A DNA stretch of 64,000 nt from Akkermansiaceae bacterium (GCA_905181965.1 CAJIZY010000013.1:124001-188000); one strand, 5' to 3'; positions 7,901-55,128 are shown, counted from the stretch's first letter. Notes: generated by a model not told the origin, from the letters alone. Numbers and translations are program-made.

Positions 7901-8617
7901 GAAGCTGCAAACAGCGCCGCCGACATACTACAAGGAACGACCCAAAACGAAGCAATTGGCAAGATCCTTAGCGCCTTTGCCGGTCGTGAGGGAGGTGGCA
8001 CACTCCTAGCAATGGAACTGGCAAAACGAAAAATTGATCGCACGCAGGGAAAACGACTGAAAAATGCGTGGATCGCAACCGGATTTGTTCAGGAAGAGAT
8101 CACAGAAGCACTTGAAGCGATCACAGGTTGGTCCATTGCAGGATTGAAATTTAACGAAGACCTTGTTCGTCGAATGGTAGCGGCAGGGCGTAAGGGTGAT
8201 CGGGTTCGCGGCGAAGCTCTCTTCAAGTCAGCTCGAGCTGGTTGTGTGGCCTGCCACAAGATTGGAAACCAAGGAGGAATGATCGGTCCGGAACTGAGCG
8301 CAGTCGGTAGCGGAGTACCTGCAGACCGCATCATCACGGAAGTGCTCTGGCCAGCCCGTCAAGTGAAAGGCGGCTACGCGCTAAGCCGGATCAGTATGAA
8401 AGACGGACGTGTCTTGCAGGGATATCTGCAAGAAAGCCGAGACAAGAACCTATTATTACTTCGAGATTTCGCTGGAGCAGGAATGCATGAAGTCGAAGCT
8501 GAAATGGTTACCAAGCAGGAATCGATCGGAAGCCTTATGCCTCCTACCGCCCAATCACTCTCGCGAGATGAACTCTCCGACTTGTTTGCTTACCTTTTCA
8601 GCCTTGTTGGAAAATAG
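4949..8617 (+). CDS. Giant secreted protein: SGNH-like, PVC propeller dehydrogenase, HEAT repeats, cytochrome c
   Basis: The 1222-residue protein starts with a signal peptide (MKALKPIAIAFIGVACAAAQ). Residues about 25-190 resemble an SGNH hydrolase, but the nucleophile block reads FVGGADL instead of GDS, so this part may be inactive. Residues about 290-640 form the PVC 'membrane-bound dehydrogenase' propeller, with repeats such as NGDGRADESKVFADGL, PTGIEVGPDRVYIGQG and DGAIYVVDWYNP. Residues about 650-1050 are HEAT-type helical repeats. The C-terminus carries one heme c site, CVACHKIG (about residue 1101), followed by GPELSAVG, the Pirellula/Verrucomicrobium heme-binding domain. The family is tied to periplasmic sugar or polyol oxidation by inference only. 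It stands alone, with 171 nt of upstream DNA. Confidence 0.85.
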   Translation: MKALKPIAIAFIGVACAAAQPLELQKGDVVAFVGGADLVRLQEDGRLEAALTLRFREATPQFRDLAWEGDTVYFQNAVRERWRTEAFGGWPEQLRRIKATVVIFQFGKMESFDGIGKIAQFTEAYGKLIDELTGEGRRAILLAPSPFEWPAARERAALASYTKAVATLAKNRKIPFITSDQANSVKAFIRGLTGKTEPNGPLYKQVRFTVREKHRLWVEYWRPTNWKCIFGDDSKRIFSKASHGRPSIQEEWATYPALIQDAENAIQEGVTWHAPAPSALTGSKEANLKNELASFEVLEGFKVNLFADESNGIANPLSVRWDANGRMYVACSDAYPQIEPGVRGNDKVITLRDTNGDGRADESKVFADGLRIPTGIEVGPDRVYIGQGTELLTLRDTTGDGYANERRTLLAGFGNGDSHQTSNSFVWSPGGELWWCQGDGIESRVETPFGVSSLFQAGVFRLRPNELKLDGLLDDFMGPGNPWGIAFDDYGQSFVIDGAGGVSYLTPASIPAKRRLRLPRIGKPGGYCGIDCLGARTFPDGMQGEFLIGDYKKNQISRFATSDDGAGFKLDWKEPLLRSKHRNFRPIDVKVGPDGAIYVVDWYNPITCHQDDFYRHPDRDKTHGRIWRIAPEKGVLRPPNLVGASVLELLEALKAPERWTRLKAKQVLAGRELPQVLPAAKTWAKTAEGRDLMEVVTLLEWLDQPDSEILRRLLASSDDRARAYGVRVAGRWGERIENIVGLLEHAAKDRHARVRMEAALACATLPDTGAIMVATTVAEEPRDRWINYAFAQAVHHTKTNWLPAFQKGELDFGNRRRGLTAVLGAVESKQVLDEVRKLLLSDQLDENVQLTLARALVAVGEDRDLQTVFQLGQLDAATIRAMASRKRPEFDVSDFLESLCASKHVEDSVAALELAAKWRIRELYQTAMRLARSSQADPQLRSAAMRVMGALGNKETIPLLKVMAGKPANPKPAAIIGLLEVDQAEAANSAADILQGTTQNEAIGKILSAFAGREGGGTLLAMELAKRKIDRTQGKRLKNAWIATGFVQEEITEALEAITGWSIAGLKFNEDLVRRMVAAGRKGDRVRGEALFKSARAGCVACHKIGNQGGMIGPELSAVGSGVPADRIITEVLWPARQVKGGYALSRISMKDGRVLQGYLQESRDKNLLLLRDFAGAGMHEVEAEMVTKQESIGSLMPPTAQSLSRDELSDLFAYLFSLVGK

Positions 8618-8814
8618 GGTTCATTTAGATGAATTCATGGGGCAATCATAGCTTAGCCACCTCCTACAAATCCACCCTTCGCTAACCCGACTCAATTTTC
8701 TCGTATCCAGATAGTGAACGGTGTCGAGAACCCTTTAAATTTGCTACTTTATCCTTAATTATCCCGGAAGGAGATTACTGAAAAACGGACCTAGAATTTG
8801 CCGTATTCTTAAGG

Positions 8815-10161
8815 ATGGCTACAGATCCAACTAATCGCCGGAGTTTTATTAAAAGCACGACTGCCGCCAGCGCCTTTGCAGGAATCATCCCATCGCGAGT
8901 CCAAGCAAAATCCTCTGCTGGCAAATTGAATATCGCAGCTATCGGGATTGGTGGCAGGGGCGCTCCGGTCATCAAAAGAAGCGCAGGAGAGAATATCGTG
9001 GCACTTTGCGATGTCGATTTTGACCGCGGAGCTGAGACTCTTAAACAGTATCCCAAGGCTAAGAGATTCAAGGATTTCCGAGTCATGTTTGACAAAATGG
9101 AGAATCAAATCGATGCGGTAATTGTAGCAACGCCTGATCACACGCACGCAGTCGCCACAATGGAAGCGATAAAAAGGGGGAAACATGTTTACACCGAGAA
9201 ACCCCTAACTCATACGATATGGGAGGCGCGTCAATTAACAGAAGCCGCGCGTAAATACGGAGTTGCCACACAAATGGGAAATCAAGGCCACTCTTCCGAG
9301 GGAGCCCGCCAAACAGTTGAGTGGATCCGTGCCGGAGTGATTGGCGAGGTGCGCGAGGTTCATTGCTGGAGTGATCGCCCACTGAGGGGCACGCGTTTTG
9401 AACAGAAAATGTACTGGCCTCAGGGTGTTTCTACCCGTCCAGTGGAGAAGCCTCCTATTCCCAGCGCTCTCGATTGGGATCTATGGCTAGGCCCCGCTCC
9501 CCATCGGGAATATCACCCCAATTATGTTCCATTTAATTGGCGAGGTTGGTGGGACTTTGGGACTGGCGCTTTAGGTGATATGGGTTGCCACATTATCGAT
9601 CATCCATACTGGGCCCTCAAATTAGGTTATCCTGAGAGTGTTGAAGCAAGCAGCTCTCATATTAATGACGAGACCGCTCCACTCGCTTCTATCATCACTT
9701 ACCAATTCCCAGCGCGTGAAGGCATGCCCCCGGTGCGAATGCATTGGTATGATGGTGGTCTTAAACCGCCTCGACCTGCGGAACTTGGTCCCGAAGATGA
9801 ATGGCTGGTCGATGGAGTTCTCTATGTCGGCGATAAGGGTAAAATTATGCACCGCTCCCACGGCGGAAAACCGACGCTCATTCCTTTGTCACGTATGGAA
9901 AATTTCAAGCGCCCAGCCGAGACAATTCCTCGGATCAAAGGTAGTCACGAACAAAACTGGATCGATGCTTGCAAAGGAGGGAGCCCCGCTTGTGCCAACT
10001 TTGATTATTCTGGACCTCTGACCGAAGTCGTCTTACTCGGTAACCTTGCTCTTCGCACCGAGGGGCCCTTGCTTTGGGATGGTCCAAATATGCGCGTTAC
10101 AAATAACGAGTCTGCTAATCAATTCATCCAAAGAGAATACCGCAAGGGCTGGGCTTTGTAA
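8815..10161 (+). CDS. Gfo/Idh/MocA-family oxidoreductase, Tat-exported
   Basis: The 448-residue protein starts with a twin-arginine-like leader (NRRSFIKSTTAASAFAGII), then a Rossmann NAD(P) fold (LNIAAIGIGGRGAPVI). Further family landmarks are IDAVIVATPDHTHAVA, KRGKHVYTEKPLTHTIWEAR (the EKP signature with the catalytic Lys) and GDMGCHIIDHPYWALKLG. It fits the exported sub-family abundant in Planctomycetes and Verrucomicrobia. Members are thought to oxidise or isomerise sugar derivatives with a cofactor carried through Tat; the substrate is not visible from sequence. It is followed after 37 nt by the PSD1 cytochrome gene and then DUF1501, so the three probably form one transcript. Confidence 0.88.
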   Translation: MATDPTNRRSFIKSTTAASAFAGIIPSRVQAKSSAGKLNIAAIGIGGRGAPVIKRSAGENIVALCDVDFDRGAETLKQYPKAKRFKDFRVMFDKMENQIDAVIVATPDHTHAVATMEAIKRGKHVYTEKPLTHTIWEARQLTEAARKYGVATQMGNQGHSSEGARQTVEWIRAGVIGEVREVHCWSDRPLRGTRFEQKMYWPQGVSTRPVEKPPIPSALDWDLWLGPAPHREYHPNYVPFNWRGWWDFGTGALGDMGCHIIDHPYWALKLGYPESVEASSSHINDETAPLASIITYQFPAREGMPPVRMHWYDGGLKPPRPAELGPEDEWLVDGVLYVGDKGKIMHRSHGGKPTLIPLSRMENFKRPAETIPRIKGSHEQNWIDACKGGSPACANFDYSGPLTEVVLLGNLALRTEGPLLWDGPNMRVTNNESANQFIQREYRKGWAL

Positions 10162-43021: not shown

Positions 43022-43252
43022 CTATGAGGTCTAACAAAATCACAAGGCCCAGAGCAACCTGTCTTTTAGAAAACTTTCCTCAAAACTCCTCGTATGAATG
43101 ACTTCACACGAACAGCGCCCTTTAATTAACAATAAAGCATCGAGATCTCCGTTAGATCTTTTGAGATGTTGGACACAACTGCGTGGTAAATTACGCAATT
43201 GCTCTCACTTGAGACATCCCTAAAAGATCTAAAACTCCCCACTACTTCTCTC

Positions 43253-45004
43253 ATGACCATAAAAAACATTTTTGCATGGATCCTCTTCGGGCTAATTTTA
43301 CAGGAGACCAGCGCCCTGCTGATTACGGAAGGATGGCGTATTCAAAAAGGCGATAACTCGGCATGGTCTCAACCCAATTTTGATGATTCAGCTTGGAAGG
43401 CTATTCCGGTAGGGCAGCCGTGGGAAAAAGGAGGGCTCCCGAAATATGATGGTTACGCTTGGTATCGCCTGAAGCTGACGATCCCCAGCACTTTAGATGA
43501 AAAAGCACGGGCTGAAAAACATCAGAAATTACTCCTAAATCTTGGTAAAATCGACGATGTCGATACTACTTTTTTTAATGGTGTCAAAGTCGGAGCGACC
43601 GGCGATCCGAGCAACCCAAGCGATTCTTGGACACAAGAACGAAAATACGAAATCCCATTAAATCTTGTCCGTTGGAATAAAGACAACGTGATTGCCGTAA
43701 AAGTATTCGATCACGATGGCAATGGTGGATTACACAAAGGACCTTACACCCTCTCGGCTCCAGCTTGGAATCACTTTATAAAGATTAAATTAGGGCTAGG
43801 CCGTGGTGACGGTATTTACCCAAGCAGCGAATCAACAAGATTGACTGCTATTATCCAAAACGAAGGCCTTGAAAGTTTGTCCGGCACTATTTCCTGGCAG
43901 GTGCATAATGAAACTTGGCGGATCGAAAATCGCGGACCAGCGTTGAGCGCTCAAAAGGCTGACCTTTCTCTTAAAGTGAAGCGTGACACTCCCGTAAGTT
44001 ACCTATTTTCACCTCCCACTCCTGGCTTCTACCACGTTACCTGTTCGTTTAGTAAAGGAGATAATAGCAAAACAGTATCTCAAACTATGTTGATTGGATT
44101 TGCTCCAGAGGAAGCCGAGCGGCTTCCCGATACACCAGAGGATATGGATACCTTCTGGAAAGATGCGAAAGCAGAACTCGCAATGGTAAGACCCAAATTT
44201 AAAATCAGTCCGAGCCCCAAACACTCTACCTCTGAGGTGGCGTGTTATCTCGTAGAAATGCGCAGTCTAGGGAATCTCCTGATCAGAGGGTGGTTTCAAG
44301 TCCCCAAGAAAAATGGACCCCATCCAGCACTCCTCAGAGTGCCGGGTTATAAGGGTAACATGCAACCCATCACTATGATAAATGACATGGCGGTCCTTTC
44401 TCTCAATATTCGTGGCCACGGCAATAGTCAGGATGAAATTTCTAGCGAAGATTTAGAATTCGTCGTGATGGGCGTCGATAAGCCTCGAGAATATTTCTAC
44501 CGTGGTGCCTTCATGGATTGCCTTCGCGGGCTCGACTTCTTAGCGACTCAACCGGAAGTCGATGCTCAACGATTGGGGGTCACCGGAGGCAGCCAGGGCG
44601 GCATGCTTTCTTTTGCTACTGCTGCACTGGACTCTAGAGTTGTGCTTTGTGCTCCAGATATTCCTTTCGTCATTGATTCCTTCCGAGCTTTTGACACGAC
44701 GGAATGGCCTGGGAGTATCTTTCGTTACGGCTTTAAAGCGAATTTAATCAAGCGCTCCGTAGCCTCTAATGTTCTTCGCTACTTTGACCCTAAAAATCTC
44801 GCTAGTCGCATCAAGTGCCCCGTTTTCATGGGAGTGGGACTCCAAGATCCAGTGACTCCCGCACCCACAAACTTTGCAGCTTACAACCAAATCACAGCTT
44901 CAAAAGAGTATCGAGTTCATCCATTTGCAGGTCACGGCTTACCCGAGGAACATTACATCGAACAGCTCGCATGGATTCGAAAGCAGTTCGCGCAGAAGCG
45001 CTAA
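43253..45004 (+). CDS. Secreted acetylxylan esterase-like (CE7) hydrolase with beta-sandwich domain
   Basis: The start at 43253 gives a signal peptide (MTIKNIFAWILFGLILQETSA). Residues about 20-160 form a galactose-binding-like beta-sandwich (WSQPNFDDSAWKAIPVGQPW, YAWYRLKLTIP, LLNLGKIDDVDTTFFNG), the kind found in beta-glycosidases. Residues about 330-580 are an alpha/beta-hydrolase of the acetylxylan esterase/cephalosporin-C deacetylase group: VLSLNIRGHGNSQDE, nucleophile Ser in TGGSQGGMLS, Asp in GVGLQDPVTP and His in PFAGHGLPEEHY. It would remove acetyl or other acyl groups from polysaccharides. It precedes the GH13 amylase by 35 nt in the same direction. Confidence 0.85.
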   Translation: MTIKNIFAWILFGLILQETSALLITEGWRIQKGDNSAWSQPNFDDSAWKAIPVGQPWEKGGLPKYDGYAWYRLKLTIPSTLDEKARAEKHQKLLLNLGKIDDVDTTFFNGVKVGATGDPSNPSDSWTQERKYEIPLNLVRWNKDNVIAVKVFDHDGNGGLHKGPYTLSAPAWNHFIKIKLGLGRGDGIYPSSESTRLTAIIQNEGLESLSGTISWQVHNETWRIENRGPALSAQKADLSLKVKRDTPVSYLFSPPTPGFYHVTCSFSKGDNSKTVSQTMLIGFAPEEAERLPDTPEDMDTFWKDAKAELAMVRPKFKISPSPKHSTSEVACYLVEMRSLGNLLIRGWFQVPKKNGPHPALLRVPGYKGNMQPITMINDMAVLSLNIRGHGNSQDEISSEDLEFVVMGVDKPREYFYRGAFMDCLRGLDFLATQPEVDAQRLGVTGGSQGGMLSFATAALDSRVVLCAPDIPFVIDSFRAFDTTEWPGSIFRYGFKANLIKRSVASNVLRYFDPKNLASRIKCPVFMGVGLQDPVTPAPTNFAAYNQITASKEYRVHPFAGHGLPEEHYIEQLAWIRKQFAQKR

Positions 45005-45039
45005 CTCGCTTGTAAAACGTAACTGTATTCTTTTTCTTT

Positions 45040-46920
45040 ATGCCCATCAGATCTCAACTAATCCGCGCAAGCTTCGGTAGTATTCTTTTCCTTTTTTCGC
45101 CTACCTATGGCGCTCCTTTCGATCAACCGCCTGAATGGTCTCGGGATGCAATTTGGTATCAAATTTTTGTCGAACGATTTGAGAATGGTGACTCTAAAAA
45201 TGACCCCCGCCCAATCGACATGGAAGGATCATATCCAGGATTTGTTCCGGCGGGTTGGAAGATCACTCCTTGGGGGCACGATTGGTATGAGCAGGAAAGC
45301 TGGGCTAGAAAAACAGATGGAGATTTCCACAAAATCGTCGCAGCTCGCCGCTATGGGGGAGATCTCCAAGGAGTCTTAAACAAGCTAGACTACCTTCAAG
45401 ATCTTGGCATCACCGCAATCTACTTCAACCCACTGAACGATGCTCCTTCGCTGCATAAATACGATGCTCGAAACTATCGCCACATTGACCGGAATTTTGG
45501 GCCAGACCCAATTGGAGATCATACGATCATCAACAAAGAAAATCCGCTTAACCCTGAAACTTGGTCTTGGACTTCTGCTGATCGCCTGTTTCTAAAACTC
45601 ATCAACGAAATCCACCGTCGCAAAATGCGCGTGATCATCGACGTCTCGTGGAACCACACCGGCAACACCTTCTGGGCCTGGAAAGACGTCGTGAAAAATC
45701 AAAAGAATAGCAGGTTCCGTGACTGGTATGATATCAGTTCATTCGATGATCCAAAAACTCCCGAAAACGAATTTCAATTCGAAGGCTGGCTCGGAGTAAA
45801 AACGCTCCCCGAGCTTAAAAAAGTAAATGTTTCGGGTAAACGAAGAGGACATGTATTCGAGGGGGATCTTCAACCTGAAGTGAAAGAGCACATCTTCAAC
45901 GTCACTCGGCGCTGGATGGACCCAAATAACGATGGAGACCCAAGTGACGGAGTTGATGGTTTCCGCCTTGATGTCGCCTCACACGTCCCTCTTGGCTTTT
46001 GGCGAGATTACCGAAAATTCGTCCGCGAGATAAACCCAGGCGCCTTACTACTCGGTGAAGCATGGTGGACCAAGTGGCCAGACACCTTAATGGATCCGCG
46101 CCCATTCCTCCGAGGAGATACCTTTGATTCGGTGATGCATTATCAATGGTATAAGCCAGCACGCCAGTTGTTTGCCAAAGCAGGAGGCGGGATCAAACCC
46201 AGCGAATTCATCGCAAAGATTAAACGGGTCTATGCGGGATATAGCCCTGCCCAGTCACAGAGCTTAATGAACTTGGTCGCAAGCCACGACAGCCCGAGAC
46301 TCAGCACCTCTTTCCTAAATAAACAAAAATACAAATTTCAGATGGGAGCCCGTGGAAACAAGCAACTCAAGCTTGGACCACCAGACAAAACCACTACCAG
46401 TGAAATACGTATGATGTTGTTGCACCAATTTACCTACCTCAGTGCACCACACATCTGGAATGGTGACGAACTTGGAATGTGGGGAGCAGACGATCCCGAC
46501 TGCCGAAAACCTCTACTTTGGGGAAATATTGATCACAGTCCTCAGATCTTCGCTCCAGATGGCTCTCGAAGTAAGGCCATAGCCGTCTCCCCGAACCAAG
46601 AGCAGTTTAGCTACCAAAAAAAGCTTATTTTATTGCGTAGAAAACGTCTCGAATGGACTAGAGGAAGCGCTCGTTTTCTTCACTCTAATGACGAAGCCCT
46701 CACTCTCGCCTATCTTCGTGAAATTGACCAACATCGATCACTGGTAGCTTTCAATTTTTCAAACAAAGCTCGAACCCTCTCGCTAGACAACCAATCAGTT
46801 TCAAGCTTCGAGCTCCTCGTAGCATCTCGCCCAGAGGCCCTACTGGCAGGGACTATTGAAGCCCGCACCCTGCGCCTCAAGCTCGCACCTCTCTCTGGCG
46901 TAGCCCTCCATCTAAATTAG
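45040..46920 (+). CDS. Secreted alpha-amylase family (GH13) glycoside hydrolase
   Basis: The 626-residue protein has a leader (MPIRSQLIRASFGSILFLFS). GH13 conserved regions are DVSWNHTGNT (region I), GFRLDVASHVP (nucleophile Asp), LLLGEAWWTKW (acid/base Glu) and NLVASHDSPRL (transition-state Asp). IWYQIFVERFENGD at the start and a long insert before GVDGFRLD (GHVFEGDLQPEVKEH) resemble neopullulanase/cyclomaltodextrinase-type enzymes. Its leader makes it periplasmic or extracellular; the substrate is probably alpha-glucan. It shares a transcription unit with the acetyl esterase. Confidence 0.92.
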   Translation: MPIRSQLIRASFGSILFLFSPTYGAPFDQPPEWSRDAIWYQIFVERFENGDSKNDPRPIDMEGSYPGFVPAGWKITPWGHDWYEQESWARKTDGDFHKIVAARRYGGDLQGVLNKLDYLQDLGITAIYFNPLNDAPSLHKYDARNYRHIDRNFGPDPIGDHTIINKENPLNPETWSWTSADRLFLKLINEIHRRKMRVIIDVSWNHTGNTFWAWKDVVKNQKNSRFRDWYDISSFDDPKTPENEFQFEGWLGVKTLPELKKVNVSGKRRGHVFEGDLQPEVKEHIFNVTRRWMDPNNDGDPSDGVDGFRLDVASHVPLGFWRDYRKFVREINPGALLLGEAWWTKWPDTLMDPRPFLRGDTFDSVMHYQWYKPARQLFAKAGGGIKPSEFIAKIKRVYAGYSPAQSQSLMNLVASHDSPRLSTSFLNKQKYKFQMGARGNKQLKLGPPDKTTTSEIRMMLLHQFTYLSAPHIWNGDELGMWGADDPDCRKPLLWGNIDHSPQIFAPDGSRSKAIAVSPNQEQFSYQKKLILLRRKRLEWTRGSARFLHSNDEALTLAYLREIDQHRSLVAFNFSNKARTLSLDNQSVSSFELLVASRPEALLAGTIEARTLRLKLAPLSGVALHLN

Positions 46921-47034: not shown

Positions 47035-47631
47035 CTACTCAGCAATACGAACCAAGATCTCATTCCGTCGCATAAAGGGAGGAGTGAAAGGGGGGTCATA
47101 GCTGGCCTTCTCCATCACCGACCTTAAAGTGAGATTCTGTTCTTCGATCCATTTGGCGAGTGTTTGACGTGCTTTCTTGTCTCTAGCCTCGGTCCAACGA
47201 CCACTGTAGCGATAGACCGCGAAACGTCCTGCTTGTCTCTTACTGACGGCGATATTATTGTTGTTCGCTTTCGGCGCTCCATCTTTAGCAACCTCCTCGG
47301 GCAGCACAAAACTCATCTCCTGAAGATCACCAGCTGTCTTAGAAAAAACCGGCGTTGTCATAGCGATCTTTTGTTCGGCTTCGTTTTTTCCAGAAATGTA
47401 TCGAAACAAGCTCATGAATCCTGAATTTTGATTGTTGTTGCCGTTTTTCATAGTGGCGGTCGCAACGACAATTTCGGGGTAGTCTCGAACCTCAAAAGCT
47501 CCATCAGTTTTTACTGTCTTGTAAGGCGCGGATTCATATCCGGCCCGTCCCAGAGGACCGGTACAGGAAGAAAGCACGGTAAAAAGAAGAGTTCCTCCGA
47601 TGGCAAGGGCGATAGGAAATTTGATTTTCAT
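47035..47631 (-). CDS. SOUL heme-binding family lipoprotein
   Basis: The 198-residue protein has a lipoprotein leader (IGGTLLFTVLSSC) and the SOUL/HEBP fold: YKTVKTDGAFEVRDYPEIVV at the N-terminus, GFMSLFRYISGKNEAEQKIA and AMTTPVF (the most conserved SOUL block). MSFVLPEEV and RFAVYRYSGRW follow. Bacterial SOUL lipoproteins are thought to bind heme or related tetrapyrroles, but the ligand is not shown here. It stands alone between the amylase and the PEP-CTERM gene. Confidence 0.9.
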   Translation of the reverse strand: MKIKFPIALAIGGTLLFTVLSSCTGPLGRAGYESAPYKTVKTDGAFEVRDYPEIVVATATMKNGNNNQNSGFMSLFRYISGKNEAEQKIAMTTPVFSKTAGDLQEMSFVLPEEVAKDGAPKANNNNIAVSKRQAGRFAVYRYSGRWTEARDKKARQTLAKWIEEQNLTLRSVMEKASYDPPFTPPFMRRNEILVRIAE

Positions 47632-47887: not shown

Positions 47888-48628
47888 TTAGCGGCGTTGG
47901 CGCCTCATTGCGAACAAAGAAGCTAAACCAAGAAGAGCGATACTAGAAGGCTCCGGAACTGCCACGGCGAACTGAGCATCTGTTCCTGCCCAAAAACGGA
48001 GCCCTGTGTCTAGGTTGATCGTTGCGGTGTCTCCAAGGTTAGCAATCGCTGCGAGGTTCGTATTATCACCATTTCCTGCAGCAAAGTTTCCTCCGAAGAT
48101 ACCAAACCCAGCCGCGTTTGCTCCACTCCAGTTATTCTGAGTTCTGGCAACTTCAGTCGTATCGACAGTGGTTCCACTACTGGCTCCATCAACAAAAAGC
48201 TCAAAGTCGATTTCGCTGGCATCGTATGCCCACACAACTTCGACCTCTCCCCCTGAAACTTGCGCATCTGTAAGTTGATGAGTTACCACTCCCAAGGCAT
48301 TTCCACTATTAGTTGAGTGGTGCACGCTCAAAGTGGCTGCAGCTTGATTGTAGGAAACGCTTGTTCCAATTGTTGCTCCACCGCTCTCCCAGATGACTCC
48401 GTTATTTGCACTATCACCTGCGTTGAAATCAATCGAGACCGCAAAGGTAGCGTCCTTTGTAGTAACCGCCGCAACTCCACCAACAGTCCGATTTTGATAC
48501 GTCGCGCTCTGCCCGATCGTATTGACAGTCTCGGAAGGCTCCCCGAGATCAGCCAGAGTATTTATGTTCACAGTTGCCGCCGAAACAGCGCCTACGCAAA
48601 TGCCAGAAATAAGAAATGAAATCTTCAT
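47888..48628 (-). CDS. PEP-CTERM-anchored LamG-like secreted protein
   Basis: The 246-residue protein has a signal peptide (MKISFLISGICVGAVSAAT), then a LamG/concanavalin-like domain (DATFAVSIDFNAGDSANNGV, ATLSVHHSTNSGNALGVVTH, WELFVDG-type strand, GFGIFGGNFAAGNGDNTN). It ends in a PEP-CTERM sorting signal: VPEPSSIALLGLASLFAMRR with basic tail. PEP-CTERM proteins are exported and processed by an exosortase, often with exopolysaccharide. Most of its domain is nearly identical in DNA to part of the larger gene at 40399-43021. The tail is intact here, so this may be the source copy. Confidence 0.9.
   Translation of the reverse strand: MKISFLISGICVGAVSAATVNINTLADLGEPSETVNTIGQSATYQNRTVGGVAAVTTKDATFAVSIDFNAGDSANNGVIWESGGATIGTSVSYNQAAATLSVHHSTNSGNALGVVTHQLTDAQVSGGEVEVVWAYDASEIDFELFVDGASSGTTVDTTEVARTQNNWSGANAAGFGIFGGNFAAGNGDNTNLAAIANLGDTATINLDTGLRFWAGTDAQFAVAVPEPSSIALLGLASLFAMRRQRR
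47970..48558. repeat. 589-bp near-identical block, copy B
   Basis: Partner of 42327-42915, same orientation, 5643 bp apart. Differences by eye include a cluster in the codons around the pair SEIEWELFVDG/SEIDFELFVDG plus a few isolated bases. The repeat lies inside the PEP-CTERM protein gene and ends before its sorting signal. Confidence 0.9.
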
Positions 48629-48882: not shown

Positions 48883-50679
48883 TCATTCGCGCTTCTTACT
48901 TTTGATAAACTGGGCTGGCGTCACGATATCCAAGAAGCCCTTGCGGTGAATCGAAGAGGTTGGATGACCAGCGTAATGAAGGGCTGCCTGAAGAAGGGTG
49001 ACGCAGGTGTATTCGTAGGCGATTTCTTCAGGCGTCTCAGGAGTCGTCGTGCGATTGTGAAACCCGATTACGCCGGAATAGTCATACGATTTTTTAGGAT
49101 CGGAAAGCTTTCTGAGTGAAAGGGTAACAAACTCCTCGAGGCGCTTTTCATCAAGATCGGAAGTGGGACGAAAAATGGCCCATTTTTTGTCATCAAGGTA
49201 TTCCAATCCATCGTCGATATTGGCAGCCTGCTTCATCGCGAGTTGGAGTAGTTTTTTCTCCCCATTGCTTTCAACAACAAGAGCAAGGTGACCGTAATCA
49301 AAAAGTTGATAGGGAAGCTTTTGGATCTTTCCTTTTTTCAGGTAAGCCATTGCTTCCTTTTTCGTCATGTGGAATGCCACAATGTCGCCATTTTGGAGGA
49401 GTGATTTTTGGGAACCAGATATTTCCCGAAAAGCAGCGACCTCAGTCCCGAGGTGTGTTCCTCCAGGAGGGCGCTCAATTATGGCACAGGATGAAACGGT
49501 AAGGACGATCATTAAAGTGCTCAGAGTTTTAATGATCCGTTCCTGAACCGCAGCGGAAGGAATCATACAGCTTCTATTTGACCCAAAATAATGACGCTTC
49601 TTTGCAACAGAATCGTAAAGAAAATCTCGAATAGGCCGGGGGATGATCCGCGCGACCAAAGAGAGCACCTTCCAATGACCTCCGAGAGAATCGAGGATGA
49701 CAATAACTGCTGTAGAACGGCGAGAGATTCTCCCTTCCCGTGTGACAATCATACTAGTTTTTTCTCCATCATCGGGAAGAGCTTCGAAGGTGAGGAGTCG
49801 TGCTTCATCTTCGCAAGCCAGGAAAGCTAGAAAGCGATTGCACATGAGACAATCGGCATCGAAGGCGACGCGGACCGGCGTCTTAGTCTTTAGCCATTTA
49901 GGATCGAAGGTGAAGAGATGGATCATGATCATCCCCATTGAGAGATCCGCAAAGTCGATGAGAAGGATGAGGCCAAGATGCATCCCTAAAAGGGCGACCC
50001 AAATCCAGGGTCGTGATTTTTTGTTTAGAAAAAGAGGCAGATAGCAAAGTTCTGCTAAGAGAGCTCCCCAAGTCAGAAACCCAAGAATGCCGTCGGGCAT
50101 CGCGAGCAGTAAATCCCGGAAGAATCCTGGTCGAGCGAGAGGATTAGTTAGGAGGTGAGCGATGGCGCCCCCATCAACCCAGCTGGGCGATGAGAGCTTA
50201 GTCCAACCACTAAAGGTATAACCGAGAGCGAGGAGAAAGGTTGCTACAGGTATGATCCATCTGGGCATGAACCAGTGGTCGTTCTTCCGACTTAGGGAAA
50301 AGTTTTCGCCAACTGGAATCAAGGTCGTCAACATAAGAATCAGTCCGAGATAAGGCAGCGAGGGGTTGGAGGTGAGGTTGTTTCGATGAAAGAGGGCCGT
50401 GATCATGAACCACAAAACAACCGCCGAAGTTCTGCGGGCCCATCCGAGAGTGAAGCTCAGCGATGCCAGAATCGCGATCCCGAGGGTCACTATGACCGCC
50501 ATCGGCGTGTCCCAGAAGTAAAGGTGGTTCGGAAAAACCCCATAGGTGGGATTGAGGGCAGGGTCGCTGATGAGTCCTTCGTTTGAAAAGAGCTCCGACC
50601 CATAGGGAATCAGGGCGATGAAATGCCAAGTCAGGAAGACTCCAAAAAAGATACGGAAGAGAGCAAACTGTGAGTTCAT
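48883..50679 (-). CDS. HTTM - DCC1 - YiiX-like cysteine peptidase fusion protein
   Basis: The 598-residue protein has three parts. Residues 1-265 are an HTTM (gamma-carboxylase-like) membrane domain with many helices (LFRIFFGVFLTWHFIALIPY, FFRDLLLA, LGMHLGLILLIDFADLSMGM). Residues 268-375 are a DCC1/DUF393 thiol-oxidoreductase-like domain, VAFDADCLMCNRFL (Cys277, Cys280). Then comes a hydrophobic segment with a lipobox-like VSSC (Cys398). Residues 405-598 resemble permuted NlpC/P60, YiiX-type peptidases: LFDYGHLALVVE (His464) and YEYTCVTLLQAALHYAG (Cys559). Its start overlaps the 150-residue gene. HTTM plus DCC1 is known; the added peptidase looks unusual. The end may instead be a separate lipoprotein gene joined in frame. 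Confidence 0.8.
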   Translation of the reverse strand: MNSQFALFRIFFGVFLTWHFIALIPYGSELFSNEGLISDPALNPTYGVFPNHLYFWDTPMAVIVTLGIAILASLSFTLGWARRTSAVVLWFMITALFHRNNLTSNPSLPYLGLILMLTTLIPVGENFSLSRKNDHWFMPRWIIPVATFLLALGYTFSGWTKLSSPSWVDGGAIAHLLTNPLARPGFFRDLLLAMPDGILGFLTWGALLAELCYLPLFLNKKSRPWIWVALLGMHLGLILLIDFADLSMGMIMIHLFTFDPKWLKTKTPVRVAFDADCLMCNRFLAFLACEDEARLLTFEALPDDGEKTSMIVTREGRISRRSTAVIVILDSLGGHWKVLSLVARIIPRPIRDFLYDSVAKKRHYFGSNRSCMIPSAAVQERIIKTLSTLMIVLTVSSCAIIERPPGGTHLGTEVAAFREISGSQKSLLQNGDIVAFHMTKKEAMAYLKKGKIQKLPYQLFDYGHLALVVESNGEKKLLQLAMKQAANIDDGLEYLDDKKWAIFRPTSDLDEKRLEEFVTLSLRKLSDPKKSYDYSGVIGFHNRTTTPETPEEIAYEYTCVTLLQAALHYAGHPTSSIHRKGFLDIVTPAQFIKSKKRE

Positions 50680-51128
50680 GGTTTCTGTAGTGAGTATTGA
50701 TAGTGCCTAGGCGACTCGCCGGGGCGTGGAGTAATTACGATGAAAGGTTCATCGAGATCGGAGAGATCGAGTTCTTCGGACAGGGTAAATTCCTTGGAGA
50801 GGATTTTACCAAAGAGATGGTCGCGCAAATCTTCGGGAAGCCGGGGAGCGTAGGCCAGAGCGGCACCGTAGACATTGCGCCGTTGATAAGGACCTTCGAG
50901 TTGAGAATAGCGCTCGGGAGTCAGGTGAATTTCGGTGTCATTACAATCAATGATTTTAAATTCAGCCGCGAAGGGTTCATAACCGCTAGATTCGCAAAAA
51001 ACCTTGGGAAAGGGGGAAATTCCAGTCGCTAACCCGATTCCCCGAAGAGCACGTGAATCGGCAAAGTATCCGACAATTTGCAGACATGAGATTCCCCCGA
51101 TGAGGAAGGTGAGAAGATTTCTTTTCAT
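50676..51128 (-). CDS. Small exported protein of the HTTM operon, unknown function
   Basis: The 150-residue protein has an N-terminal hydrophobic segment (LLTFLIGGISCLQIVGYFA). Cys residues lie in VFCESSGYEP and IIDCNDTEIHLTPE, and the C-terminus ends PRPGESPRHYQYSLQKP. No family is recognised. Both ends overlap neighbours as ATGA, so it is translated with the hydroxylase-like gene upstream and the HTTM fusion downstream. Two cysteines beside a DCC1-containing partner make disulfide exchange conceivable, but this is inference. Confidence 0.7.
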   Translation of the reverse strand: MKRNLLTFLIGGISCLQIVGYFADSRALRGIGLATGISPFPKVFCESSGYEPFAAEFKIIDCNDTEIHLTPERYSQLEGPYQRRNVYGAALAYAPRLPEDLRDHLFGKILSKEFTLSEELDLSDLDEPFIVITPRPGESPRHYQYSLQKP

Positions 51129-51913
51129 GAGTTAAAACATCGTTCCTTTTGTGAATAGCAAGCCCAACGCTTATGGCAGCCGAGGCAGATTGGCGAGAGG
51201 CCATGGACATCTCTGAAAACGAGCATCGCACCCAGGCGGTTCTCTTTTTCCGAATCGAAGCCACATTTCTGGGGAGACGATTTGGGGTTGTTGTAGGTCC
51301 CGAAAAGAAGGTCCCAGATCGGGAGATCCGCGTAATTCTGGGTGTGATGTCGGCGCATATGGTGCACACGGTGTGATTCTGGACGCTGGAAAATCGGACC
51401 AAGCCAGCGTGGAGTACGGATATTCCAATGGTAAAAAAATTCTGCGATGGCAGTGAAAAAAGTATAAAGTGCCGCCGCTTCTGCAGTGAGCCCGAGAACC
51501 ACGTAAGTGAGAGTCGCCGAGATCAGAGAGTTAATCGTGATCTCGACGGGGTGTTTATAAAAGCTGGTAAGGATCTCGATGCGTTGTGGCGAGTGGTGCA
51601 GTTGATGGCAGAGACGCCAGAATAAATTGGATTCGTGCCGAACGCGATGCCACCAGTAATAGAAGAAAGTCGAGATGAGGTAGCATATGGCGGCACCCCA
51701 AAAGAGGGAGAGGCTTTCTCCCAGATGAAAGAGAGAGGCTTTTTGAAACCAACGATCCCAAGTGTGCCCCGCTAGAATAAGAATACCGACCTGAACGGTA
51801 TTAATCACCACAATGCGGAGCCACCAAGCTTTCGAAGACGGCAATTCATTACCTGGCCAAATCCGTTCAATGAGAACGAGTAGCAGAGCAATCCCAAATA
51901 ACAGGAGAATCAT
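51125..51913 (-). CDS. Sterol desaturase/fatty acid hydroxylase-family membrane protein with CxxCH tail
   Basis: The 262-residue di-iron membrane enzyme has N-terminal helices (ILLLFGIALLLVLIERIW; VQVGILILAG). The His clusters that hold the two irons are WWHRVRHES, CHQLHHSPQR and ESHRVHHMRRHHTQNY, the HxxxH/HxxHH pattern of the sterol desaturase superfamily. Members hydroxylate or desaturate lipids. After the usual end (LLFGTYNNPK) there is an unusual tail, PICLGCHKRWACYSQKERC, with a CxxCH motif and two more Cys. It is the first gene of a three-gene overlapping operon ending in the HTTM fusion. Confidence 0.88.
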   Translation of the reverse strand: MILLLFGIALLLVLIERIWPGNELPSSKAWWLRIVVINTVQVGILILAGHTWDRWFQKASLFHLGESLSLFWGAAICYLISTFFYYWWHRVRHESNLFWRLCHQLHHSPQRIEILTSFYKHPVEITINSLISATLTYVVLGLTAEAAALYTFFTAIAEFFYHWNIRTPRWLGPIFQRPESHRVHHMRRHHTQNYADLPIWDLLFGTYNNPKSSPQKCGFDSEKENRLGAMLVFRDVHGLSPICLGCHKRWACYSQKERCFNS

Positions 51914-53160: not shown

Positions 53161-55128
53161 CTAAAAGCCTTGTTGATAAAGCTTCCTCACTTTAACGGCA
53201 TCAAGAACGTCCTGCCAAATAGTAAGCTCATCGATCTTCCCCTCAAAATTGCGTCCTGTCCCTGCCCGGTGTCCCCCAATGATGAGGCCACCATGCTCAG
53301 CAGCAGGCCCTGGGTGCTCAAGCACATGTGTTGCAATAATTTGACCATTCAGGAATACCTTTAGGTATTTCGAATCAAAGCAAACGACGAGATGTGACCA
53401 TTTCCCTTCGATCTCTGATCTCAGGTGACTCGACTGAAATGCCCCCTGTCCTTTGGCGACTGGAGCCTTCTGTGGACCGCCCGGGCGTAGTGTTTGGGTA
53501 TGGAGCCGAATCGCAATATTTTCAGCCTCAGTTGCTGTGCTAAGTTCAAGGGAGAGATGGTAAGCCGCTTTTGAAGAGGGCTTCCCCTCGGCAGTCGTTT
53601 CAAGAATGAATTGGCGATCCTTACTTCCAAATGCAGGAAGCTTATTGGGCTGAATCCAACAAGAAACCGAATGACCGGCCGAGTTATCATCGAGAAAACT
53701 CCGGGGGACGTTGACGAATTGTCCCCTTGCTCGCTCAAGCTGGAGTGCCCCATCGGAAATTTCAGCACCATTCTGAGGGCTCCCATCGAGGCGTTCCCCA
53801 AGAATTGAAGAATTTGAAAAATCCTTATCGAAGGACCAGTGAGCTCGCAGAGTTTCGTCTTTTTTAGGAGGAGTAAGCTCGGAAAGCTTGAGGATGATTT
53901 TCTTATTCACTTTCCCTCCGGGCTGCCGGTAAGTGGCAGTTAGAGTTGGGTCATCTGGAGTAGGGTCAGCTTCCAAAAAGAGAAACTGCTGGCCTTCTAC
54001 GAGGGACCATTCAAGCGAGGGGTGATAAACATTCAGAGAAGGTATAATGCGGTTATGGCCTGGTGACATAATGAAGTCATGAAGGTCATAACCGACTCGA
54101 CGTGGGTGTATGAGATAGCGTGAGACGTGGATATCTCCACCGTGAAGAACAACCCCACTGATGCGCTCATGCTTCACGAAGTCAAGAATGGCATCACGCT
54201 CATACCAATAGGTAAACATATCATCTGTTTCGGAATTCTTTTTGTCCTGCCAGATTCCGCCGATCGAGAGAACCTTGAAGAGGGCTTTTGAATCCTTGAG
54301 TGATTTAAGAAGCCATTCCCATTGCTCCTTCCCGAAACAGGAAGGCTGAGATGGATCGACGGGAGATGGTTCCGACTGTGAGAACCAGCGCGGGTCGAGG
54401 TGAAAGATCTCGATCGCTCCGAGATCTGTCTTGTGGTAGACCCCTTCAACCCCATTCCCATACTGACGGTGTGCTCGGTATTCTACAAATCCTTTGCGGG
54501 TCGCCATCTTCCCTTCTTCAAAATTTTTCCCGTTGCCATTGTTAAGCCCAAAGTCGTGGTCGTCCCACATACCTACGGTTGAAGTGCTTCGAATGACTCT
54601 TGCGAGGGGCAGTTCATTAAGGAGGGTCCGGTGCTTTTTCCGCACTTCTGCAAGATTAGTGGTGTCTATGTAAGGAGTATCACCACCAAGGTAGAGGAGA
54701 TCTGGCTTTAATTTGCCGATCTCTTCCCAGACAGGGGCCGTATCCTTAGCTGAGACACAAGAAATCAGCGCGGCACTCACACGCTCACCACGGGATCTAT
54801 CCGTAGTCTTAAAGAAAAGATCATTTCCCCCAGCGACAATTTCGGACGAGGCTTGATTTGAAATTTGGTATCGGTATTTAGTCCCACTGACCAGTCCTTC
54901 GATATGGAATTTTGCGACAAAATCATCGGCCTTTAAAGCCGTGGTTTCAGCGGTGGAGACAACTTTACCCTCTTGATTGAGAACCGAAAGCTCTAGATCA
55001 ATTTCAAATTCTCCAGGCCGATAGAGAAAAAACGCCTCAGTTGGGCCTAAACTTCCAATACAGGGGCCAACCGTCTCAGCGTTGGCTATCTTTACAAACA
55101 AAAGAGAGAAGAGCAGAACACGAATCAT
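53161..55128 (-). CDS. Secreted PhoD-like phosphatase/metallophosphoesterase with LamG domain
   Basis: The 655-residue protein has a leader (MIRVLLFSLLFVKIANAE), then a short beta-sandwich (VAKFHIEGLVSGTKYRYQIS) as in PhoD N-domains. The metallophosphatase core reads AALISCVSAKDT, LYLGGDTPYID, TVGMWDDHDFGLNN, IGGIWQDKK and VVLHGGDIHVSRYLIHP. From about residue 435 there is a LamG/laminin-G-like domain (LRAHWSFDKDFSNSS, CWIQPNKLPAF, WSHLVVCFDSKYLKVFLNG, KIDELTIWQDVLD). It probably hydrolyses phosphodiesters or phosphomonoesters of a glycan or cell-surface polymer. It is transcribed opposite to the barrel gene. Confidence 0.87.
   Translation of the reverse strand: MIRVLLFSLLFVKIANAETVGPCIGSLGPTEAFFLYRPGEFEIDLELSVLNQEGKVVSTAETTALKADDFVAKFHIEGLVSGTKYRYQISNQASSEIVAGGNDLFFKTTDRSRGERVSAALISCVSAKDTAPVWEEIGKLKPDLLYLGGDTPYIDTTNLAEVRKKHRTLLNELPLARVIRSTSTVGMWDDHDFGLNNGNGKNFEEGKMATRKGFVEYRAHRQYGNGVEGVYHKTDLGAIEIFHLDPRWFSQSEPSPVDPSQPSCFGKEQWEWLLKSLKDSKALFKVLSIGGIWQDKKNSETDDMFTYWYERDAILDFVKHERISGVVLHGGDIHVSRYLIHPRRVGYDLHDFIMSPGHNRIIPSLNVYHPSLEWSLVEGQQFLFLEADPTPDDPTLTATYRQPGGKVNKKIILKLSELTPPKKDETLRAHWSFDKDFSNSSILGERLDGSPQNGAEISDGALQLERARGQFVNVPRSFLDDNSAGHSVSCWIQPNKLPAFGSKDRQFILETTAEGKPSSKAAYHLSLELSTATEAENIAIRLHTQTLRPGGPQKAPVAKGQGAFQSSHLRSEIEGKWSHLVVCFDSKYLKVFLNGQIIATHVLEHPGPAAEHGGLIIGGHRAGTGRNFEGKIDELTIWQDVLDAVKVRKLYQQGF

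Follow-up and report, generated by a model that had tools for sequence, protein, structure and literature searches.

HTTM proteins form a family to which both vitamin K-dependent carboxylase (GGCX) and SdpB belong, and to our knowledge the role of most of its bacterial members is unsolved. GGCX binds menaquinone-4 and uses Lys218 as the base for deprotonation of vitamin K hydroquinone; the glutamate is held by N159, H160 and Y395, and Lys217 has a part in substrate binding (PMC12589487). SdpA and SdpB are required for the processing of SdpC to the SDP peptide (PMC6818787). Within the permuted NlpC/P60 superfamily, a conserved Tyr has a catalytic role; a fatty acid was found in the pocket of the Escherichia coli member YiiX, and cleavage of amides between lipids and amino acids has been proposed for such enzymes (PMC3142127). 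The YiiX-related protein LnsA is required for lipoprotein N-acylation (PMC7387801). Among the papers searched, none dealt with HTTM together with DCC1 and sterol desaturase, or with HTTM and SdpB.

Architecture of the three-gene locus

We analyzed a stretch of 64,000 nucleotides (the window) from an Akkermansiaceae bacterium (GCA_905181965.1 CAJIZY010000013.1:124001-188000). On its minus strand, where all cassette features given below lie, three genes follow one another in the 5' to 3' direction. They encode a 262-aa fatty-acid-hydroxylase-superfamily enzyme (FAH; 51125..51913), assigned by Pfam (PF04116) and an alignment of 15 relatives; a small one-helix protein of 150 aa (50676..51128), defined by alignment and an AF2 model; and a 598-aa fusion of HTTM, DCC1, lipobox and YiiX-like parts (48883..50679), defined by an open reading frame that is intact in eight genomes. 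Successive genes overlap by 4 bases at each junction. The linkage of the three genes proposed in the preliminary description is thus confirmed in coordinates, strand and overlaps, and their order recurs in 8/8 fused loci. The architecture, its recurrence, the co-occurrence of the genes and the domain identities are solid. The unit, intact in several Verrucomicrobiota families, looks like an undescribed cell-envelope lipid-modifying pathway.

The FAH scores 100.1 bits against PF04116 (cut-off, 31), and its His motifs H89-x3-H93, H103-x2-HH, H162 and H181-x2-HH are invariant in 15 relatives; its sequence marks it as a membrane di-iron enzyme of this superfamily. The protein ends in a Cys tail (51158..51265) with C217 and C243-x2-C246-x5-C252 (CxGCxK[RK]xxC). 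The C-x2-C-x5-C pattern occurs in 14/15 aligned cassette FAHs, the exception being L074. In weaker FAH matches, the aligned part ends at model positions 210-233 of 267, before the Cys tail.

The small protein is predicted to be exported, with one N-terminal membrane helix (residues 2-23) followed by a small domain in the AF2 model. Its family alignment contains two invariant motifs, SPxPKVF..GYExF and GPYxRRNVxGA. It belongs to no Pfam or NCBIfam family, its model gave no match above Z 2.4 among the PDB matches listed, and a plasmid search returned no match. It had been described as a two-Cys protein, a label that does not hold for the family: some members have Ser in place of Cys45, and the second Cys is confined to the window protein and the relative closest to it. 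By position and size, and by analogy with SdpA and SdpB, it may be the partner of the HTTM protein. Membership in the SdpA family itself was rejected, as the SdpA model TIGR04034 matches no member of the small family; the model also found no match in the window's genome or in 144 other genomes of the phylum.

The genes around the cassette vary, and neighbors are kept only between closest relatives; flanking genes were therefore rejected as pathway members. In the window, a PEP-CTERM protein gene (47888-48628, minus strand) lies immediately 3' of the fusion and has no cassette linkage in other genomes. A SOUL haem-binding family protein (143.9 bits), encoded two genes from the cassette (47035-47631, minus strand), has a lipobox-like signal; its gene is not kept beside the cassette elsewhere. 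Farther out, an acetyl xylan esterase-family protein and then an alpha-amylase-family protein are encoded at 43199-46920 (plus strand), and a PhoD-like phosphatase with a C-terminal LamG-like domain at 53161-55128 (minus strand).

The fusion frame and the older core cassette

The preliminary description proposed a single HTTM-DCC1-YiiX polypeptide and named a stop missed between residues 375 and 398 as the finding that would undo it. A join of two genes by an assembly or annotation artefact would fit the lipobox-like stretch at the junction and the separate HTTM-DCC1 and YiiX genes of other genomes. Against this, the frame is uninterrupted in eight genomes, with 54-96% identity to the window protein; these are seven genomes of the window's genus, its own among them, and a single one from a different family of the same order. 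Across the fusions, no start codon is conserved in the interval between DCC1 and the C-terminal domain, and L027 has no internal start at all. Before as well as after the junction, most substitutions affect the third codon position. Because the frame is open in all eight genomes and third-position changes dominate across the junction, a missed stop is excluded, and we regard an artefact as vanishingly unlikely. The fusion is real.

Phylum profile searches recovered the order FAH, small protein and HTTM(-DCC1), without YiiX, in seven genomes (G476, G437, G203, G381, G496, G532 and G236), with DCC1 lacking in G236. A further genome, G320, has the small protein and HTTM-DCC1 and lacks both FAH and YiiX. 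This YiiX-less core is spread over several families. The small protein occurs in 7/388 genomes of the phylum, and the identical seven carry cassette-type HTTM-DCC1. Of 16 cassette genomes, 15 have a cassette-type FAH (E < 1e-100); the 13 other genomes searched have none and gave at best weak FAH-superfamily matches. Since the search models were built from the cassette genomes themselves, it is the absences elsewhere that carry the weight. In one cassette, L039, the HTTM gene (8527-9330) lacks DCC1, and none was found in the 19 kb searched. With DCC1 missing there and FAH missing from G320, neither is strictly required.

The YiiX part has a narrower distribution. In G437, G476 and G532, the three unfused cassette genomes of the window's family (3/3), separate YiiX-like genes lie well away from the cassette, and within this family close separate relatives occur only in cassette-bearing members. 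The five cassette genomes outside the order yielded no YiiX of the fusion type. More distant YiiX relatives were found in G010, G014, G015, G056 and G477. The FAH tree groups the eight fused loci together (support, 95/95); in the HTTM tree, this group has weaker support (65/71), and it is not recovered clearly in the YiiX tree. Given the separate genes in the three unfused genomes of the same family, YiiX was probably fused once, and a single event is the simplest reading. Collectively, the FAH-small protein-HTTM(-DCC1) cassette is older and YiiX is a lineage-specific addition, so that the core cassette, rather than the fusion alone, is the larger finding.

Domains and predicted topology of the fusion

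The HTTM domain (49882..50679; residues 1-266) is identified by PF05090 (32.2 bits; gathering cut-off, 27.7), by its fold, and by helices and loop charges that give about eight membrane helices with the N terminus predicted inside. In the AlphaFold model of the fusion (mean pLDDT, 76.9), residues 1-261 match residues 60-313 of human GGCX with a Z of 16.3. GGCX was recovered by structure only, a comparison of the fusion profile with PDB sequences having found no relative. The invariant Y..SG..K of the cassette HTTMs aligns with GGCX YFIAGVKKL, which makes Lys161 (50197..50199; invariant in 16/16 cassette HTTMs) the counterpart of the catalytic base Lys218, placed by profile alignment with GGCX sequence stretches that were verified in the PDB. 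The invariant Trp167 corresponds to GGCX Trp223. The suggested kinship to vitamin K-dependent carboxylase is accordingly borne out by both fold and catalytic Lys. At the position of the Glu-binding His160, all 16 cassette HTTMs have Leu or Phe, a match made by eye through a shared N-N motif, as the profile alignment begins just past it. Lys217 is not conserved. The luminal propeptide-binding domain of GGCX is absent, as the match stops near residue 261 and DCC1 follows. Retention of the base together with loss of the glutamate site suggests related chemistry on another substrate. VKOR was rejected as a partner: it is absent from all eight unfused cassette genomes and from two fused ones, and its presence does not follow the cassette, so the classical (animal) vitamin K epoxide cycle is not supported.

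The DCC1 thioredoxin-like domain (49537..49881; residues 267-381) matches PF04134 with 44.8 bits (cut-off, 27.8) and has its CxxC at C277/C280. It is followed by an internal lipoprotein-type signal (49486..49536; residues 382-398, IIKTLSTLMIVLTVSSC) that ends in the lipobox Cys398. Ser-Cys precedes the YiiX part in 7/8 fusions, the Cys being lost in L028, and five of the eight fit the pattern [LVI][ASTVI][GAS]C. The separate YiiX relatives L076, L077 and L029 also bear lipobox-like sequences. The hydrophobic stretch at the junction, typical of lipoprotein signals, is shorter than expected of a membrane anchor. From the helix positions in the model and the loop charges, the N terminus is predicted to be inside, with about eight helices followed by a cytoplasmic DCC1, the short hydrophobic stretch and an outside YiiX part. 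As the lipobox-like signal is kept at the junction, signal peptidase II may release YiiX as a lipoprotein, in which case it would not act within one polypeptide. If used, the internal lipobox would let one chain yield both a lipoprotein and a membrane enzyme, an unusual arrangement.

The C-terminal third of the fusion, like the small protein, matches no Pfam family. Its model resembles Bacillus cereus 3kw0 (Z, 12.0; residues 395-596) and E. coli YiiX 2if6 (Z, 10.8; residues 426-596), with scores well above those of other matches over this range. We place a YiiX-like permuted NlpC/P60 domain at 48886..49407 (residues 425-598) on the basis of these folds and the Peptidase_C92 profile. Peptidase_C92 (PF05708) matched 0/8 proteins at the Pfam gathering score, and a profile comparison returned an E value of 0.0027 but a probability of only 11%; in that comparison, His, Tyr and Cys are in register, in agreement with the fold match. 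The predicted catalytic His464 (49288..49290), the predicted nucleophile Cys559 (49003..49005) and Tyr532 (49084..49086), the profile-aligned counterpart of the superfamily's conserved catalytic Tyr, are invariant in 16 relatives. The presumed third catalytic position, Glu in the family, is Gln479 in the fusions and Ser or Thr in some relatives, as placed by alignment only. The identity had been given as permuted NlpC/P60-like with a His464/Cys559 pair; the YiiX and 3kw0 folds, the His-before-Cys order, and the invariance and register of both residues agree with it.

A domain of this type is also encoded in L030 (8057-9046), L031 (547-1536) and L032 (7914-8903); the proteins, about 330 aa long, have hydrophobic stretches at the N-terminal end, which are perhaps another membrane tether for such an enzyme. 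In the window's genus, ordinary Peptidase_C92 genes repeatedly adjoin a gene for a putative iron-sulphur NADH dehydrogenase subunit (L084, L085, L086, L090, L091 and L093).

Proposed function and comparison with described systems

The reading that we prefer, with a probability of roughly 0.4, is that the cassette carries out a cell-envelope modification of a substrate bearing an acyl chain, be it a membrane lipid, lipopeptide or lipoprotein. The FAH would hydroxylate this substrate from the cytoplasmic face. With menaquinol, O2 and Lys161 as base, the HTTM domain would generate a strong base or an oxidant on the periplasmic side. It would act on the substrate of FAH, which the small one-helix protein would hold or present. 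DCC1 would supply or sense thiol redox power on the cytoplasmic side. The internal signal would direct export of the YiiX part, which signal peptidase II would probably separate from the rest at Cys398; once lipidated, this part would act outside the membrane on an acyl amide or ester bond, by cleavage or transfer. The substrates of FAH and HTTM cannot be read from sequence, and we infer the lipid substrate, the menaquinol chemistry and the release of YiiX. The bolder statement, that a menaquinol-powered GGCX-type enzyme modifies a lipid, lipopeptide or lipoprotein in place of glutamate, in one conserved pathway that also uses a di-iron hydroxylase, a small partner dedicated to it and a YiiX enzyme released from the same polypeptide by signal peptidase II at the internal lipobox, is rather unlikely to be right in full.

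The envelope-modification reading is favored by the conserved order on varying flanks, the co-occurrence in 7/388 genomes, the distribution of cassette-type FAH, the GGCX fold with Lys161 and the menaquinone bound by GGCX, the YiiX fold with its invariant His, Cys and Tyr, the lipid links of YiiX and LnsA, the separate YiiX genes of the unfused family members, the predicted topology and the lipobox. Counting against it are the independence from VKOR, the DCC1-less L039, the FAH-less G320, the fusion without a lipobox Cys, and the five YiiX-less cassette genomes outside the order. The pairing of an HTTM protein with a small co-encoded partner equally recalls SdpA/SdpB, and the HTTM and one-helix proteins could instead process or modify an exported peptide that FAH and YiiX acylate or deacylate. 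This is distinctly unlikely: TIGR04034 matches neither the small family nor the phylum genomes searched, no conserved small precursor gene stands beside the cassette, whose flanks differ, and we know of no SDP system with an FAH.

Marginally less credible again is an isoprenoid or quinone pathway, in which FAH would hydroxylate an isoprenoid, HTTM would oxidize menaquinone or a relative, and YiiX would be a housekeeping lipoprotein fused by chance. The FAH superfamily also holds sterol and carotenoid enzymes, and the menaquinone bound by GGCX points the same way, but retention of the fusion in eight genomes and the restriction of close separate YiiX genes to cassette-bearing family members argue against a chance fusion. 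The cytoplasmic placement predicted for the DCC1 CxxC, the C-x2-C-x5-C tail of FAH and the lack of VKOR in many cassette genomes would also suit redox maintenance, with HTTM-DCC1 as a transmembrane electron carrier that links menaquinone and thiols, the Cys-rich tail of FAH as its partner and the lipid-like parts secondary. The L039 cassette without DCC1 and the L074 FAH without a Cys tail speak against this, the least probable of the three.

The preliminary description had suggested an unrecognized membrane-lipid or lipoprotein modification pathway. Lipid chemistry does emerge as the common theme, from the FAH superfamily, the fatty-acid-binding YiiX and the need for LnsA in lipoprotein acylation, and on the sequences such a function is plausible, though inferred. 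The fusion, the linkage and the domain identities stood; YiiX as an integral component did not, being a lineage addition that may be cut free, and neither did the two-Cys label. A kept catalytic Lys, a lost glutamate pocket and conserved partners point toward lipid chemistry and offer a compact gene set in which to test the role of HTTM.

The cassette HTTM shares with GGCX the membrane fold, the Lys218/Lys161 and Trp223/Trp167 pairs and, by predicted topology, an active site on the outer (luminal or periplasmic) side. It differs in the replacement of His160 by Leu or Phe, the lack of conservation of Lys217 and the absence of a VKOR partner, and carries DCC1 and YiiX in place of the propeptide-binding and arch domains. 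With SdpA-SdpB of Bacillus subtilis, it has in common an HTTM-type membrane protein and a small co-encoded partner, but the small protein escapes TIGR04034, no SdpC-like precursor adjoins, and FAH, DCC1 and YiiX are extra. OlsE, the ornithine lipid hydroxylase, is of the same superfamily as the FAH and its best NCBIfam match; assignment to the OlsE equivalog (NF052566) was rejected, as 62.9 bits is far under the cut-off of 475, and the cassette enzyme has an extra Cys tail. E. coli YiiX, 3kw0 and Peptidase_C92 resemble the fusion domain in fold, His-before-Cys order and conserved Tyr, whereas the latter falls below Pfam detection, has by alignment Gln, Ser or Thr for the family's Glu, and follows a polytopic membrane enzyme in the same chain, with an internal lipobox-like signal in between. 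Finally, although the partner of LnsA is a CPBP protein, not HTTM, and no FAH is involved, LnsAB of Staphylococcus aureus, like the cassette, combines a permuted NlpC/P60 enzyme with a polytopic membrane protein in work on acyl chains.
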